Origin: Haliea salexigens DSM 19537
GTDB taxonomy: Bacteria > Pseudomonadota > Gammaproteobacteria > Pseudomonadales > Halieaceae
Length of the DNA: 64,000 nt
Assembly: GCF_000423125.1 (NCBI RefSeq)
Contig: NZ_AUHJ01000007.1
Location: forward strand, 124,001 to 188,000
Direction of reading: 5' to 3'
Below are positions 2,410 to 60,922 of the stretch, piece by piece (position 1 is the first letter of the stretch; each line of letters starts with the position of its first letter). The translations under genes and the position numbers were made by a program. The notes below the pieces were generated by a model that was not told the origin of the DNA, did no database searches, and saw nothing but the letters and a program-made list of their open reading frames with translations.

Positions 2410-3321
2410 TTAGCTTTCCTGCAGCAGAAATTCCAGCAGCGCTTTCTGGGCGTGTAGCCGGTTTTCAGCCTCGTCCCAGATCACCGTATCCGGCGCGTCC
2501 ATAAGGCCGGCACTGATCTCCTCGCCCCGGTGCGCGGGCAGGCAGTGCAGGTAAAGCGCATCGCTGGCTGCGTGTGCCATCAGCGCCTCGTTGACCTGGA
2601 AGGGTGCAAACTGGCGGGCACGGGTCTGCTGTTCCTTTTCCTGCCCCATGGAGGCCCAGACATCGGTGACCACCAGGTCCGCATCGCGCACGGCAGTCAC
2701 CGGGTCGTGGCTCAGTTCCACGCGGTCGCGATTGGTGTGCAGCAGGTCGGCGCGTGGCTCAAAGCCCGGCGGACAGGCGATGCGCAGCCTGAAGTCGAAC
2801 TGCCGTGCCGCGTTGATGTAGGACTGGCACATGTTGTTGCCATCGCCCACCCAGGCCGCCGTCTTGCCGGCCATGGGTCCGCGGTGTTCCTTCCAGGTTT
2901 GCATGTCTGCGAGCAGCTGGCAGGGATGGAAGTCATCCGTCAATGCGTTGATTACCGGCACCGAGGAGTAGGCGGCAAAGCGCTCTACAATATCGTGGCC
3001 GAAGGTGCGGATCATCACCACATCGACCATGGAGGAAATGACCCGTGCACTGTCCTCGACCGGCTCGCCGCGCCCCAATTGGGTGTCCTGCGGCGACAGG
3101 AACATGGCGTGACCACCGAGCTGTGTCATGCCGGCCTCAAAGGAGACGCGCGTGCGCGTGGAGGACTTGGCAAAAATCATCCCCAGCACCTTGCCCGGAA
3201 ACTGACGCTGATCTTCACCGGCGCGGTGCGCTTTTTTCATGGTGCTGGCGCGGTCTATCAGTGCCTGCAACTCGTCGGGGCTGAAGTCGAGCAGAGTGAG
3301 GAAGTGCCGGGGTGACGCCAT
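2410..3321 (-). CDS. argF: Ornithine carbamoyltransferase
   Basis: Makes citrulline from ornithine and carbamoyl phosphate in arginine synthesis; cytoplasmic. The 303-residue protein has the carbamoyl-phosphate loop SSTRTR, the ornithine loop around DVWASMGQE and the HCLPAHRG motif. The ATG at 3321 is chosen because AGGA lies about 8 nt upstream; a TTG five codons earlier contains this SD within its codons and is less likely. It follows argD by 30 nt, so argD-argF probably form one transcript. Confidence 0.96.
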
Positions 3322-3351
3322 GGGATTATCCTGCAAAAGCGGTGCCGGGCT

Positions 3352-4518
3352 TCACTCGAAGCCCCGGATCAGTTTGATGAGGCCTGTGGCCAGTTCGTCG
3401 AGGTGGTCGTCGCTACAGATGAGCGGGGGCAGCAGGCGGATGGTGTTGCCCGCGGTCACGTTGATCAGCAGCCCGGCGGCCAGCGCGCGGCCAACCAGCT
3501 CGCCGCAATCGCGGTTCAATTGCACGCCGATCATCAGGCCGCGCCCGCGCAGCTCGACCAGGCTTTCGCAGCCCTGCAGCCCGTCTGTCAGCTGCTGCCG
3601 CAGGCGCGCGCCGGCAGCGGTAGCGCGCTCGGCGAGCCCCTCGTTGACCACCGTGTTGACCACAGCCAGCCCGGCAGCGCAGGCCAGCGGGTTGCCGCCG
3701 TAGGTGGAGCCGTGGTGGCCGGCCTTGAATACCGTGGCCGCCGGCCCGTGCGCCAGACAGGCGCCGATCGGTACCCCGTTGCCCAGGCCTTTTGCAGTGG
3801 TGATCACATCCGGAACCACGCCCATGCCCTGGCAGGCAAAGTAGTGGCCGGCGCGGCCGTTCCCGCACTGCACTTCATCGAGCATCAGCAGCCAGCCGCG
3901 GTCGTCACACAGCGCCCGCAGGCCCTGCATGAAAGCGTCGTCGGCGACGCGAATGCCGCCCTCACCCTGAATGGGTTCCACCAGTACGGCCACCACATCC
4001 GGGTTGTTGGCGGCAATCTGCTGCACGGCGGCGAGGTTGTTGAGCGGCGCCCGGGTGAAACCTGAGACCAGGGGTTCAAAGCCGGCCTGGATTTTGCGGT
4101 TGCCGGTGGCGCTGAGGGTTGCCAGCGTGCGCCCGTGGAAGGCGTTTTCGAACACAATCACGGCAGGCTTGTCCACGCCGCGCTGGTGACCATACAGGCG
4201 GGCCAGCTTGATGGCAGCTTCGTTGGCCTCTGCGCCGGAGTTGCAGAAGAAGGCGGTTTCCATGCCGGATACCGCGGTCAAGGCATCCGCCAGCGCTTCC
4301 TGCCCGGCAATGTGGTACAGGTTCGAGGTGTGTAGCAGACGAGCGGCCTGTTGCTGAATAGCCTCGGTGACTGCTGGGTGGGCGTGGCCCAGGTTGGTGA
4401 CACTGATGCCCGACAGTGCATCCAGATAGCGTCGGCCGTCGGTGTCCACCAGATAGACACCTTCTCCGTGACTGAACGTCACGGGCAGCCTTGCATAGGT
4501 TTGCATCAACGCGGACAC
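3352..4518 (-). CDS. argD: Acetylornithine aminotransferase (class III PLP enzyme)
   Basis: Transaminates N-acetylglutamate semialdehyde with glutamate in arginine synthesis, and may also act in lysine synthesis. The PLP-fold signature is complete: FCNSGAEANEAAIK for phosphate binding, LDEVQCGNGR, and the Schiff-base lysine in TTAKGLGNG. A GTG start at 4518 is preferred, with GGGAG about 8 nt upstream; an ATG four codons later (4506) is possible. 388 residues. First gene of the argD-argF pair, preceded by a hairpin leader. Confidence 0.93.
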   Translation of the reverse strand: MSALMQTYARLPVTFSHGEGVYLVDTDGRRYLDALSGISVTNLGHAHPAVTEAIQQQAARLLHTSNLYHIAGQEALADALTAVSGMETAFFCNSGAEANEAAIKLARLYGHQRGVDKPAVIVFENAFHGRTLATLSATGNRKIQAGFEPLVSGFTRAPLNNLAAVQQIAANNPDVVAVLVEPIQGEGGIRVADDAFMQGLRALCDDRGWLLMLDEVQCGNGRAGHYFACQGMGVVPDVITTAKGLGNGVPIGACLAHGPAATVFKAGHHGSTYGGNPLACAAGLAVVNTVVNEGLAERATAAGARLRQQLTDGLQGCESLVELRGRGLMIGVQLNRDCGELVGRALAAGLLINVTAGNTIRLLPPLICSDDHLDELATGLIKLIRGFE

Positions 4519-57877: not shown

Positions 57878-58289
57878 GACCGTGATGCAGCGGTTCATGG
57901 CGCACGTTGGGACTCTGAGGCTTTCGGGCAAGCGGCCTGTGGTTGAGTTCGTGCCAGAGTCCCGGAGCCTTGACCAGAATTCGCTTATCTATGCCCTGTA
58001 CCAGCAGATTGCCTCACAGCTACCAGGCAGCGCCATTGTGGACATACGGCGGGAATGCAAGTTGAGATATGGCGTGCCGATTCTCCGCGCTCACAGTGAG
58101 GAGTTTTGCTACGTCTACGACAAGGCGATCAAGCCGCTTGATTACGAGTTCAAGCTGCGTGCAATGGACTGGCTTCCAGTCACTTCAAAAATGGCGAAAG
58201 CCCAAGCAACCGAATTTATTGAAACCGTGGTGAGGGAGTACAGCCAGCAGGGGCTGTGCCTTCTCCACCCAAGCGAGGTAGCGGCATGA
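57852..58289 (+). CDS. ninB: NinB recombination protein
   Basis: 145 residues; SRSLDQNSLIYALYQQIA and the terminal TEFIETVVREYSQQG are NinB hallmarks. It binds ssDNA and substitutes for RecFOR-type functions (lambda Orf). GTG 57852 overlaps the frame upstream (GTGA). Confidence 0.92.
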   Translation: MSRWDLSNETVMQRFMAHVGTLRLSGKRPVVEFVPESRSLDQNSLIYALYQQIASQLPGSAIVDIRRECKLRYGVPILRAHSEEFCYVYDKAIKPLDYEFKLRAMDWLPVTSKMAKAQATEFIETVVREYSQQGLCLLHPSEVAA

Positions 58290-58720
58290 ACGAAAAAGCA
58301 GAATTGATACTAACTGAAATGCTCCAGAGAGTTCTTGATGGAGTGGATACAGCCACAGACTTTGCGCAGCGCGAAGTGCCCGATGTTGTGCAGCAGTTGC
58401 TGGTCTGGCACATGCTGGAGGCTATTGTGTGGGCGGTCATTTTCGCCGCCATAACTGCTTTTATCTGGGTCATAGTTCCACGGCATTGCAGAAAGGTCAA
58501 GCTGGACCCCAGCAAGGACCGTTGGCGCGAAAACACGAAGTTAAATCTTGTATACGACGAAAACGGATATGCCCATCCGGGCGTTGTGGTCGTGGGCACC
58601 GTTTTCGGTGCTTCAGCAGTAACATTTTTTGCATCCATCTCGAACGCAATGGCGGCTTTAAAAATAATCTTGGCACCGAAGTTTTACCTTCTGGAATACG
58701 GCGCAAGCCTGGTTAAGTGA
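58286..58720 (+). CDS. Phage membrane protein, two TM segments
   Basis: 144 residues from ATG 58286. TM helices at ~45-65 (AIVWAVIFAAITAFIWVIV) and ~100-125 (VVVVGTVFGASAVTFF). No recognised domain. Between ninB and ninG, in the place of lambda nin genes; nothing holin-like is obvious and its job is unknown. Confidence 0.7.
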   Translation: MNEKAELILTEMLQRVLDGVDTATDFAQREVPDVVQQLLVWHMLEAIVWAVIFAAITAFIWVIVPRHCRKVKLDPSKDRWRENTKLNLVYDENGYAHPGVVVVGTVFGASAVTFFASISNAMAALKIILAPKFYLLEYGASLVK

Positions 58721-58729
58721 GGATTCGAA

Positions 58730-58948
58730 ATGAGATCAGAAAAGCTAAGACACTTCCCCAGCAGCGACCCCGTGGCCCGCAACTACAGCGAGACAAAGCA
58801 GCGGGAGAGGGCAGAGATTGAGGCAGACGTTGAGCGGTTCCTTGCCCAGGGCGGGGAGATTCAAGAGTGCGGCAGTGAGGCCAACCGCAACCCACAGTTC
58901 AGGCCGGGGGCGATGGTGTCACGGCATGGCGGGCTGGTGACGCTGTAA
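58730..58948 (+). CDS. Phage hypothetical protein, 72 aa
   Basis: Charged, helical: RERAEIEADVERFLAQGG. Its stop overlaps the ninG start by one base (TAATG). Function unknown. Confidence 0.7.
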   Translation: MRSEKLRHFPSSDPVARNYSETKQRERAEIEADVERFLAQGGEIQECGSEANRNPQFRPGAMVSRHGGLVTL

Positions 58949-59508
58949 TGGCGAGAACCAAGGTCTGCAAAGTCTGCAAGCGTGACTTCAACCCAATGAG
59001 GTCAATGCAGGCCGTGTGCGGGCCACGGTGCGCCATTCAGCACAACGCCAAGGCGCGGGAGAAATCCGCGAGAAAGGCTCTCAGGAAGCGCAAGGAGGCG
59101 CTGAAAACCAAAGCCGATTGGATGAAGGAAGCGCAGGCCGCTTTCAACGCTTACATACGGGCAAGGGACTACGGTAAGCCGTGCATATCGTGCGGGTGCT
59201 ACGAGCAAGATAGGTTTACGGGCGGGCACTTTGACTGCGGGCATTACCGGTCAAGGGGTGCAGCAGCGCACCTACGTTTCAACGTGTTCAACGCTCACGG
59301 ACAATGCAAGCGGTGCAATCGTGAGTTATCGGGAAACGTGGTGGAGTACAGATTGCGACTCACCGAAAGGTATGGCCCCGAACTGGTGCAGCGTATTGAG
59401 CACGACAACGGCGCGCGCACCTTTGACGCTCAATACGCAAAAAGGGTGAAGGCTGTTTTTTCAAGAAAAGCCAGAATTTACAAGAAAATATTCAGGAGTT
59501 CTTTATGA
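58948..59508 (+). CDS. ninG: NinG/Rap recombination endonuclease with replaced C-terminus
   Basis: 186 residues. Zinc motif CKVCKRDFNP..CGPRC, then the nuclease core CISCGC, FDCGHYRSRGAA and QCKRCNREL of NinG. Expected to cut Holliday junctions. The last ~20 codons (KRVKAVFSRKARIYKK) are AT-rich, unlike the rest, and a second version of this tail lies at 60021-60089. Overlaps the homing endonuclease gene by 4 nt. Confidence 0.92.
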   Translation: MARTKVCKVCKRDFNPMRSMQAVCGPRCAIQHNAKAREKSARKALRKRKEALKTKADWMKEAQAAFNAYIRARDYGKPCISCGCYEQDRFTGGHFDCGHYRSRGAAAHLRFNVFNAHGQCKRCNRELSGNVVEYRLRLTERYGPELVQRIEHDNGARTFDAQYAKRVKAVFSRKARIYKKIFRSSL

Positions 59509-60017
59509 ACAATCTAGTTGAAATATTAAAAAGTAGGCTGGACTACAACAGTCAGACCGGAAATTTGACCTGGAAAAAAACATGCTCCCCACAAAACAAG
59601 TTTAAAGGCATGGCTGCCGGGGGTATAGGTGTAAACGGGTACATATACATCGGAATTTCTGTAAATGGGGTTCCGGTGACGCTATCTGCGCACCGGGTGG
59701 TGTATATGATTTCGGAGGGGGTTGAGCCACAAGGTGAAATCGATCACATCAACGGAGATAGGGCGGATAACAGATGGGCGAACCTTCGCGTTGTTGACAG
59801 ACTGGAGAACAACAAAAATATGGCGAAATACAAAAACAACTCCAGCGGCGTTATGGGTGTTTATAGGAATAAAAATAATGGGCGATGGTATGCGGCCATA
59901 AGTGACACTGGTAAAAGAATATCTCTTGGTGGATATGGTGATTGGATGGACGCGGTTTGCGCAAGAAAGTCCGCAGAGAACAAGTTTGGTTATCACCAAA
60001 ACCACGGGCGCAGTTAA
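59505..60017 (+). CDS. HNH homing endonuclease with AP2 DNA-binding domain
   Basis: 170 residues: NUMOD/HNH core (LSAHRVVYMISEG, EIDHINGDRADNRWANLR) and a C-terminal AP2 domain (SGVMGVYRNKNNGRWYAAI). Markedly AT-rich with rare codons beside GC-rich neighbours: a recent mobile insertion. It starts within the ninG stop (ATGA) and is followed by a ninG 3' remnant. Confidence 0.9.
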   Translation: MNNLVEILKSRLDYNSQTGNLTWKKTCSPQNKFKGMAAGGIGVNGYIYIGISVNGVPVTLSAHRVVYMISEGVEPQGEIDHINGDRADNRWANLRVVDRLENNKNMAKYKNNSSGVMGVYRNKNNGRWYAAISDTGKRISLGGYGDWMDAVCARKSAENKFGYHQNHGRS

Positions 60018-60020
60018 ACG

Positions 60021-60089
60021 ATGAAGCGAGTTAAGCGCATATTCAGCCGCAGGGCGCGGCACTACAAGAAATTGCGTGGTATCTCATGA
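60021..60089 (+). pseudogene. Orphan 3' end of ninG left by the homing endonuclease insertion
   Basis: 22 codons reading MKRVKRIFSRRARHYKKL, then RGIS. It matches the intact ninG tail KRVKAVFSRKARIYKKI at 12 of 16 residues but uses GC-rich codons. Its TGA overlaps the next ATG (ATGA), as the original ninG stop would have. It may be translated after the endonuclease stop, or be dead. Confidence 0.75.
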
Positions 60090-60199
60090 CGTGCTGGTGG
60101 CTCCTGGCAATCCTCACCTTCGGCCCCCTGCTCTGGTACGGGGTGAGGGTGGGGATACTGCTGCTGGCGATGTGGATGGACAAGAGGGATAGGCGATGA
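60086..60199 (+). CDS. 37-aa phage membrane protein
   Basis: ATG 60086 overlaps the ninG remnant stop. Two short hydrophobic runs (WWLLAILTFGPLLWYG and VGILLLAMW) then DKRDRR. Stop overlaps the next ATG by 4 nt. Unknown function. Confidence 0.65.
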   Translation: MTCWWLLAILTFGPLLWYGVRVGILLLAMWMDKRDRR

Positions 60200-60345
60200 A
60201 TTGCCCTCACTGCGGTAAGCAGGTGACTCCGTGCATCAACGCATCCGAGGGTATGAAGGTAAGGGCTTGGTGGTGTCAGTCGTGCGGCTGGACTGATAGG
60301 GCTATTGGGCGGGAAAGGCTGATGGGGGTTGATGATGGGAAGTGA
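60196..60345 (+). CDS. 49-aa zinc-ribbon phage protein
   Basis: CPHC near the start and CQSC 25 residues later form one zinc ribbon, with WWCQSCGWTDRAIG. ATGA overlap at the 5' end. Probably DNA/RNA binding; like small nin-region proteins. Confidence 0.7.
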   Translation: MNCPHCGKQVTPCINASEGMKVRAWWCQSCGWTDRAIGRERLMGVDDGK

Positions 60346-60700
60346 CGTGCAGCAGTACCTTATTCGCTGGGGCAAGAGTCGCGCTATCAATGATCCATAT
60401 CATCTTGACTATCCTCATGAAACTCCATTTTCCCGACTGAGCAAAAGCGGAGGATGGGCGGTAAAGCTTTCTGCGCTTGATGATGAGACTCACGGCCATG
60501 TTGATAGAGTGGTATCACAGCTCGCCAGTGTTGATGAGTACCGCCACGCTGTTATCGTTATGTCATACGTCCACTGCTGCAGCGATGCCGTGATCGCCAG
60601 AGCGCTGAGCAAGGAGACACAAACGCGCCATACTCGGCACCACGTCAGGGATATGCGTCACCGCGCTGAGGGTTGGATAGAATCACGATTGGGGGGTTGA
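60332..60700 (+). CDS. Q-like late antiterminator
   Basis: 122 residues (ATG 60332; 60335 also possible). The C-terminal half has a sigma-factor-like HTH (SDAVIARALSKETQTRH, then HVRDMRHRAEGWIESRL), and WGKSRAINDPY opens the protein. Its stop codon lies inside the -35 of a strong promoter followed by terminators, exactly where Q acts. Not close to lambda Q by eye, so the family is uncertain. Confidence 0.75.
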   Translation: MMGSDVQQYLIRWGKSRAINDPYHLDYPHETPFSRLSKSGGWAVKLSALDDETHGHVDRVVSQLASVDEYRHAVIVMSYVHCCSDAVIARALSKETQTRHTRHHVRDMRHRAEGWIESRLGG

Positions 60701-60724
60701 CTGTCGCAGCAGATTGGGCATAAT
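60697..60724 (+). promoter_or_regulatory. Late promoter PR'
   Basis: TTGACT (60697-60702), 16-bp spacer, CATAAT (60719-60724), start about 60731. It overlaps the end of the Q-like gene, and the first terminator lies about 25 nt downstream. Confidence 0.75.
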
Positions 60725-60754
60725 CAGGCAGTATAGACTTTTTGTCACACCGAG

Positions 60755-60777
60755 AACCCGCCAAGTGCGGGTTTTTT
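60755..60777 (+). terminator. Late leader terminator 1 (tR'-like)
   Basis: AACCCGC-CAAGT-GCGGGTT followed by TTTTTT. Confidence 0.9.
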
Positions 60778-60922
60778 GTGCCTGCTTAATCCTGAGCACA
60801 GGAAGGCGAACCCGGCGGGCAGGCGCAAGTATATAGTCCGGGATAGTTTGCGGTTGGCGCCCGCTTAACGAATCAGCAGCCAACATTGCACAGGAACACC
60901 CCACCAGCCACCGCTGGTCCTT

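Follow-up and report, generated by a model that had tools for sequence, protein, structure and literature searches.

The 64,000-nucleotide stretch of Haliea salexigens DSM 19537 analysed here (the window) contains a prophage ninG gene that is followed by a gene for a free-standing, homing-endonuclease-like protein and then by a second, short ninG-like tail (Table 1). The coordinates given in the original prediction for ninG, the endonuclease gene and the orphan frame hold. The tails themselves are longer than it stated, since neither ends at YKK: the in-frame tail continues with IFRSSL and a stop codon, the orphan with LRGIS and a stop codon. The orphan ORF (MKRVKRIFSRRARHYKKLRGIS, then stop) comprises 22 codons at 60021-60089 and starts three bases past the stop of the endonuclease gene, and its TGA overlaps the ATG of the next gene (60086). 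With stop/start overlaps at ninG/endonuclease and at orphan/next gene, and only three bases between endonuclease and orphan, translation should be able to pass from each frame to the next. The small prophage gene directly before ninG (58730-58948) carries a SutA RNA-polymerase-binding domain (PF20661, E=3.3e-12). The IMG/VR record UViG 2523533559 has the same sequence as the window prophage; the two being identical, the ninG element is known from one genome.

Table 1. Features of the ninG region, in window coordinates. L119-L121 are endonuclease-free IMG/VR contigs described in the text.
Feature	Position	Strand	Remarks
ninG, full ORF	58948-59508	+	186 aa; PF05766 E=4.9e-47
Body of ninG, probably native	58948..59436	+	163 codons, GC3 70.6%; nearest relative L119-L121, 56% amino acid identity
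Replacement tail of ninG, putatively foreign, AKRVKAVFSRKARIYKKIFRSSL and stop	59437..59508	+	GC3 33.3%; in frame with the body
AGGAG, Shine-Dalgarno-like, for the endonuclease gene	59494..59498	+	within the replacement tail, 6 nt 5' of the ATG; read from the sequence
HNH_3 + AP2 free-standing homing-endonuclease-like gene	59505..60017	+	ATGA overlap with the ninG stop; phrog_99 E=3.5e-57
Right junction, ACGA	60018..60021	+	orphan ATG straddles the junction; BLAST piece starts at 60022
Stranded native ninG 3' end, ...KRVKRIFSRRARHYKKLRGIS and stop	60022..60089	+	79% identity over 68 nt to the intact L121 ninG end
Small membrane-protein-like gene, 37 aa	60086..60199	+	similar small gene overlaps the intact ninG stop likewise in L119-L121

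The endonuclease gene is a stand-alone ORF with a full match to HNH_3 (PF13392; E=1e-13, 51.1 bits against a cut-off of 24.8). Its match to AP2 (PF00847; E=3.1e-5) reaches 24.6 bits and lies below the Pfam cut-off of 33.3. No intron family was found in 58700-60800 up to E=1, the only matches being two unrelated ones below threshold; this agrees with the earlier reading of the element as free of an intron, and a group I or group II intron-borne endonuclease was rejected on the same ground. An integrase element with a gene-restoring attP was rejected as well: the one gene scanned within the 584-bp insertion, HNH/AP2, matches nuclease families, and an integrase-type identity block at both ends is ruled out by tails that agree at 25 of 48 nt.

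The two tails were predicted to share 12 of 16 residues and to differ at most synonymous sites. Both points are borne out, eight of the 12 shared residues being encoded by different codons. Over the 16-residue core, the 25 identical nucleotides include 4 of the 16 third positions. GC3 drops from 70.6% in the ninG body to 33.3% in the in-frame tail and is 49.7% in the HNH gene and 63.6% in the orphan; the lowest value for any 24 codons of the body is 54%. The neighbouring gene 58286-58720 has one 24-codon stretch at a GC3 of 29%, so GC alone proves nothing for a foreign tail. Copies of a gene's own tail were sought downstream of 153 ninG loci, up to 2.5 kb past ninG, or to the contig end where that came sooner. 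The window locus, in six copies, scores 63 and the other 147 loci at most 38, a level also reached by shuffled tails (highest shown 39). When the set was collapsed to 179 distinct NinG ends (the window's included) and 1.5 kb was scanned, the next best score was 36; five minus-strand ninG loci, absent from both first scans, score at most 27. No downstream orphan tail besides that of the window occurs among the 179 distinct NinG ends and the five minus-strand loci. The second ninG tail downstream of the endonuclease is more than chance.

The closest NinG bodies (56% identity) belong to the three IMG/VR contigs L119-L121, which are without the endonuclease; they are identical over 600 nt around the site and count as one sequence. 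Their ninG is uninterrupted, ends in ...KRIKRIFTRRAKHYKKLRGIA / ...ELKRIKRIFTRRAKHYKKLRGIA followed by a stop, and overlaps the next gene by ATGA as the orphan does. The window and L121 align on both sides of the site, through the ninB region, ninG, the small membrane gene and the antiterminator Q region. The offsets to L121 of the BLAST pieces 59242-59349 and 60022-60089 differ by 584 nt, the size of the insertion, so that the endonuclease gene is present in one and absent from the other of two alignable relatives at a precise site. The right piece (68 nt, 79%) starts at the second base of the orphan ATG, the TG of which pairs with the TG of a Leu codon in L121; on the left, the insertion starts near 59437, at a point that is not fixable to a single base. 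Elsewhere the neighbourhoods differ, the window having about 0.47 kb more than L121 ahead of ninG (gene 58286-58720) and L121 about 0.24 kb more than the window behind the membrane gene, as measured by the same BLAST pieces.

Compared with the L121 tail, the orphan agrees at 40 of 48 nt, including 12 of 16 third positions; the in-frame tail agrees at 26 of 48 nt, including 5 of 16 third positions, which is about as low as its agreement with the orphan. The orphan is therefore the native tail, and the in-frame tail arrived with the endonuclease. When the orphan was scored against 113 other distinct NinG ends, L121 came first (90, next 76), and body and orphan have the same nearest relative, L119-L121. 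As had been foreseen, the tail of the endonuclease-free relative matches the downstream orphan and joins the body at K-R-[VI]-K, and the entry of the endonuclease gene into ninG near its 3' end is seen against the uninterrupted gene. Comparison with this one relative sequence, only about 56% identical in NinG, shows an insertion into ninG, with the orphan as the native tail and an in-frame tail that differs from it by divergence and has more in common with another NinG type.

That other type is represented by L079 and L132. Over 19 residues the in-frame tail has BLOSUM scores of 74 and 69 with their NinGs; with the orphan and with L121 the scores are 58 and 51. The NinG of L079 ends in RLYKKRFR, that of L132 in RLYKRLFR. 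NinGs ending in FR include AT-rich ones (L126, 33% GC; L141, 34% GC); L079 and L132 themselves, at 45% and 47% GC, are not strongly AT-rich. NinG bodies that naturally carry an AT-rich tail of this kind had been regarded as contrary to the original prediction. NinGs with similar tails do exist (L079, L132, L126, L141); they belong to other lineages and are not the nearest relatives of the window's NinG body, and so they look like the donor type and not like a refutation. For a tail of 19-23 residues the likeness is suggestive of an imported end akin to that of the L079-type (FR-ending) NinG.

The tail and endonuclease were also expected to recur together in other phages, and in this respect the search was negative: no donor phage was found among NinG loci or in genomes of the order and class. 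None of 80 further NinG loci, collected with an alignment of the FR-ending type as query, has an FR-ending ninG followed by an endonuclease of the window type, and a class-wide genome search with this alignment matched 2 of 369 genomes, one of them the window's own, and yielded no donor. With the endonuclease protein as query, matches occur in 5 of 390 genomes at the level of the order and in 6 of 369 at that of the class, counts that each include its own genome, and the best identity is 45%. Nine new endonuclease loci resulted, and the eight with enough flank contain no tail copy (best score 28) and no NinG. Within the genus, ninG is present in one of eight genomes, the window's own, and the NinG family is matched in 9 of 393 relatives, again with its own included. 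A search of phage DNA with 58600-60400 returned 10 records, all of them matches of about 90 nt to the AP2 part.

Very probably, an HNH-AP2 gene together with the last 20 or so codons of another phage's ninG was inserted, as a segment of 584 bp, into this ninG at the codon immediately preceding K-R-V-K, some 22 codons short of the stop. The enzyme would nick or cut uninterrupted ninG alleles near K-R-V-K, and repair from the carrier would copy tail and endonuclease into the uninterrupted allele, the ninG body providing the left homology arm, and the stranded tail with the genes after it the right one. The NinG frame would be closed by the imported tail, a repair that is cheap when 22 codons are displaced, and the ribosome-binding site of the endonuclease (AGGAG) would come with it. 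Because the tail is spelled differently, it should escape the carrier's own enzyme and should not recombine the element out with the stranded tail. The overlap of the orphan stop with the start of the next gene may preserve translational coupling. We infer cutting, homing and function of the hybrid NinG from the sequence.

Two NinG tails could also result if the insertion had duplicated the ninG tail as its target, the upstream copy then having drifted or been selected to escape cutting; both tails are NinG tails, and divergence near a cut site could be selected. This is improbable, as over the same 19 residues the in-frame tail scores 74 with another NinG type and 58 with the orphan, the C-termini differ (IFR.. 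against LRG..) and GC3 is 33% in one and 64% in the other. A native tail would likewise remain downstream if a foreign ninG with its endonuclease had replaced the native gene save its last 22 codons. The body, however, agrees with the native tail in GC3 (70.6%) and in nearest relative (L119-L121), the break in composition falls at the tail and not at the start of ninG, and both the ninB region upstream and the genes downstream can be aligned with that relative; replacement of the whole gene is accordingly given very little weight. The orphan has an ATG and a stop/start overlap of its own and might be taken for an independent small gene whose likeness to a ninG tail is incidental or functional (for example as a basic peptide), an explanation to which we assign practically no probability. 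Base for base, it corresponds to the intact L121 ninG end (68 nt, 79%), and the other NinG ends scanned have no such downstream tail copy. Nor was a counterpart of the 60021-60089 frame seen among them as an independent gene beside a full-length ninG, an arrangement that would have spoken against the original prediction. Origin of the orphan as an independent gene is refuted; it may have taken on a later role as a coupling cistron.

A second, independent and better-documented case is Vibrio phage PS25B.1 (L176, MW824406.1; locus 1890-2560), where a related HNH-AP2 gene, unannotated in the record, lies in the 3' end of the terminase gene. The terminase ends in ...NPLSSLDNDDYT and a stop, followed by the HNH-AP2 gene and by a stranded ...MDSDEYL and stop. 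Vibrio phages 1.021.A and 1.185.O (MG592403.1, MG592551.1), with terminases 89% and 88% identical, have empty sites with no gene there, and their terminases end in ...NPLDNMDSDEYL. The DNA past the PS25B.1 endonuclease agrees with the empty site of 1.021.A at 81 of 86 nt and with that of 1.185.O at 83 of 86 nt (5 and 3 differences, derived from scores), against 13 of 30 for the last 30 nt of the in-frame terminase. The insertion measures 592 bp, close to the 584 bp in ninG. Phage MZH0603 (terminase 82%) is also without the endonuclease and ends in MDSDDYL, its DNA there aligning poorly. It is the PS25B.1 comparison, with relatives at 88-89%, that bears the general claim of apparent recurrence made below.

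The flanks of HNH genes were scanned in 102 non-redundant loci and then in 184 (14 places with short flanks and 84 redundant ones were dropped); seven of the 184 are self-overlap artefacts, leaving 177, the window among them. The sample is biased to relatives of the window's enzyme, and the eight host-genome loci added last show no tail copy. Flank similarity reaches at least 45 in six of the 177 loci (window included). The same level is reached by none of 333 shifted controls from the same loci and by 10 of 2500 mismatched pairs, the ten likely reflecting common ancestry of the loci. Three of the six high scorers are tail copies, namely the window, L015 and L350. In L015 (IMGVR_UViG_3300037189_023242, about 2850-3500) the HNH gene lies between diverged hydrophobic tails, LAALIIVAILEALIGLK and VAALLIVVILETLIGIK, each with a stop, which agree at 34 of 51 nt. 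In L350 (IMGVR_UViG_3300028007_000060, about 2440-3045) the upstream tail AIGRRLYGRRK is paired with AIGKRLYGRRR (20 of 33 nt), and the downstream copy is the in-frame C-terminus of the endonuclease itself. These two metagenomic contigs resemble the window in plan and are candidates by their tail signature. L312 and L273 were rejected as tail copies, since the repeated part there seems to be the tail of an HNH gene that comes before. The high score of L397 comes from a copy of the start of the next gene. This locus (about 2380-2990) is a possible mirror case, with a stub MSKIIIGIE and stop before the HNH gene and a next gene, which we take to be RuvC-like, that starts MSKIILGVD. L397, L223, L205 and L184 stand outside the tail-copy count.

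When the scan was anchored at stop codons, 17 of the 184 loci scored at least 22 against 1.1 expected, a list that includes four artefacts and tandem HNH genes. PS25B.1 scored just 23 there and was not among the best in the unanchored scan, so its case rests on the empty sites instead. Short repeats were not counted and may be chance or shared ribosome-binding sites (L229/L354 AAER[VT]I, L222 NPAA and L132 IKE[NG]D[IV], each before a stop, and L054 GGAGGCAGC[GA]TGA). Thirteen HNH relatives (L009-L021) inspected by eye include none in ninG; L015, one of them, is the tail copy described above.

In L054, L077 and L135 an HNH gene overlaps ninG or comes directly after it, and in L064 one lies about 70 nt on; HNH-AP2 genes occur within 60 nt upstream of ninG in L061, L072, L129 and L191-L195. 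Both borders of ninG seem to attract HNH-AP2 genes. An HNH gene accompanies 28 of 165 ninG loci, a count that gives no frequency, since six of the 28 are copies of the window locus and several of the loci entered the set through the HNH search. No long orphan tail follows the HNH gene in L054 or L077.

That HNH genes simply abut ninG ends in L054, L077 and L135 would also suit a single event, in which a plain downstream insertion in the donor was followed by an illegitimate join in this phage, with no homing unit involved. The element is the single example in ninG, and its right junction is without long homology. Against this stand the same plan with empty sites in PS25B.1 terL and the look-alikes L015 and L350; a one-off origin is unlikely, though it retains appreciable weight. 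We put forward tentatively, as a serious possibility, that phage HNH-AP2 genes have repeatedly spread as self-rescuing units. Their targets would lie in conserved genes (ninG, terL and others), within the last few to about 22 codons; a tail of foreign origin and different spelling would repair the gene and hide it from the enzyme, and the native tail would serve as right homology arm and coupling link.

Free-standing endonucleases of phages are usually pictured between genes or as splitting genes. The arrangement proposed here would be a third way to live with a host gene, by cutting near its end and supplying a replacement. It would account for the stray gene-tail ORFs that are annotated downstream of HNH genes in phages, and it would mean that endonucleases can graft gene ends between distant phages. 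PS25B.1 and phages 1.021.A and 1.185.O offer known empty sites for the idea of self-protection. The self-rescuing unit, if true, would be a natural phage counterpart of engineered "recoded rescue" homing drives.

Among known systems, the free-standing HNH and GIY-YIG enzymes of T4-like phages (mobE, segF) are similar in being stand-alone genes located by their target, with no intron and with co-conversion of flanks; they sit between genes or split a gene, and no replacement tail is described in the available part of that account (PMC2988022). The split nrdA of Aeh1 works in two parts, and the split gene 60 of T4 is given there as not studied in detail (PMC2988022). The ShiLan insertion in actinophage methylases is also an HNH element in a phage gene, and its insert begins with 11 residues similar to the 11 past the insertion site; unlike in the window, the insert is read through in frame, HNH lies in another frame and the host gene is not ended early, according to the portion of the report available (PMC11855218). 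The ShiLan insert is perhaps related to the tail arrangement of the window. Integrative elements in icd and tRNA genes likewise keep the target gene working by a carried replacement part, but the excerpt concerned describes an integrase and an att identity block, whereas the window insert codes only for an HNH endonuclease and its tails agree at 25 of 48 nt (PMC10111431). A survey of phage homing endonuclease genes describes HNH-AP2 enzymes and, in the part available, no replacement tails (PMC10448857). No report of replacement tails for phage free-standing endonucleases was found in the open-licence literature.

The closest match in plan is the C-terminus-replacing ORF of fungal mitochondria. 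In the accessible text of the source, endonuclease ORFs replace the C-terminus of Allomyces atp6 and of Glomus atp6, atp9, cox2 and nad3, the imported C-terminus having 64-81% DNA identity to the uninterrupted relative and the stranded native one 91-98% (PMC3630166). As in the window, the endonuclease lies near the 3' end of the host gene, with an imported C-terminus on the body and the native one stranded; the fungal enzymes are mitochondrial and of the LAGLIDADG or GIY-YIG families, whereas that of the window is a phage HNH-AP2 protein, and hybrid transcripts are documented for the fungal ORFs, whereas the window element is known from sequence alone (same source, PMC3630166). The window likewise has a putatively imported tail upstream in frame and a stranded native tail orthologous to the empty site. 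The element appears to follow the same working plan as the fungal ORFs with a different enzyme family: the plan is known, and the setting and enzyme class are new as far as literature searches show.
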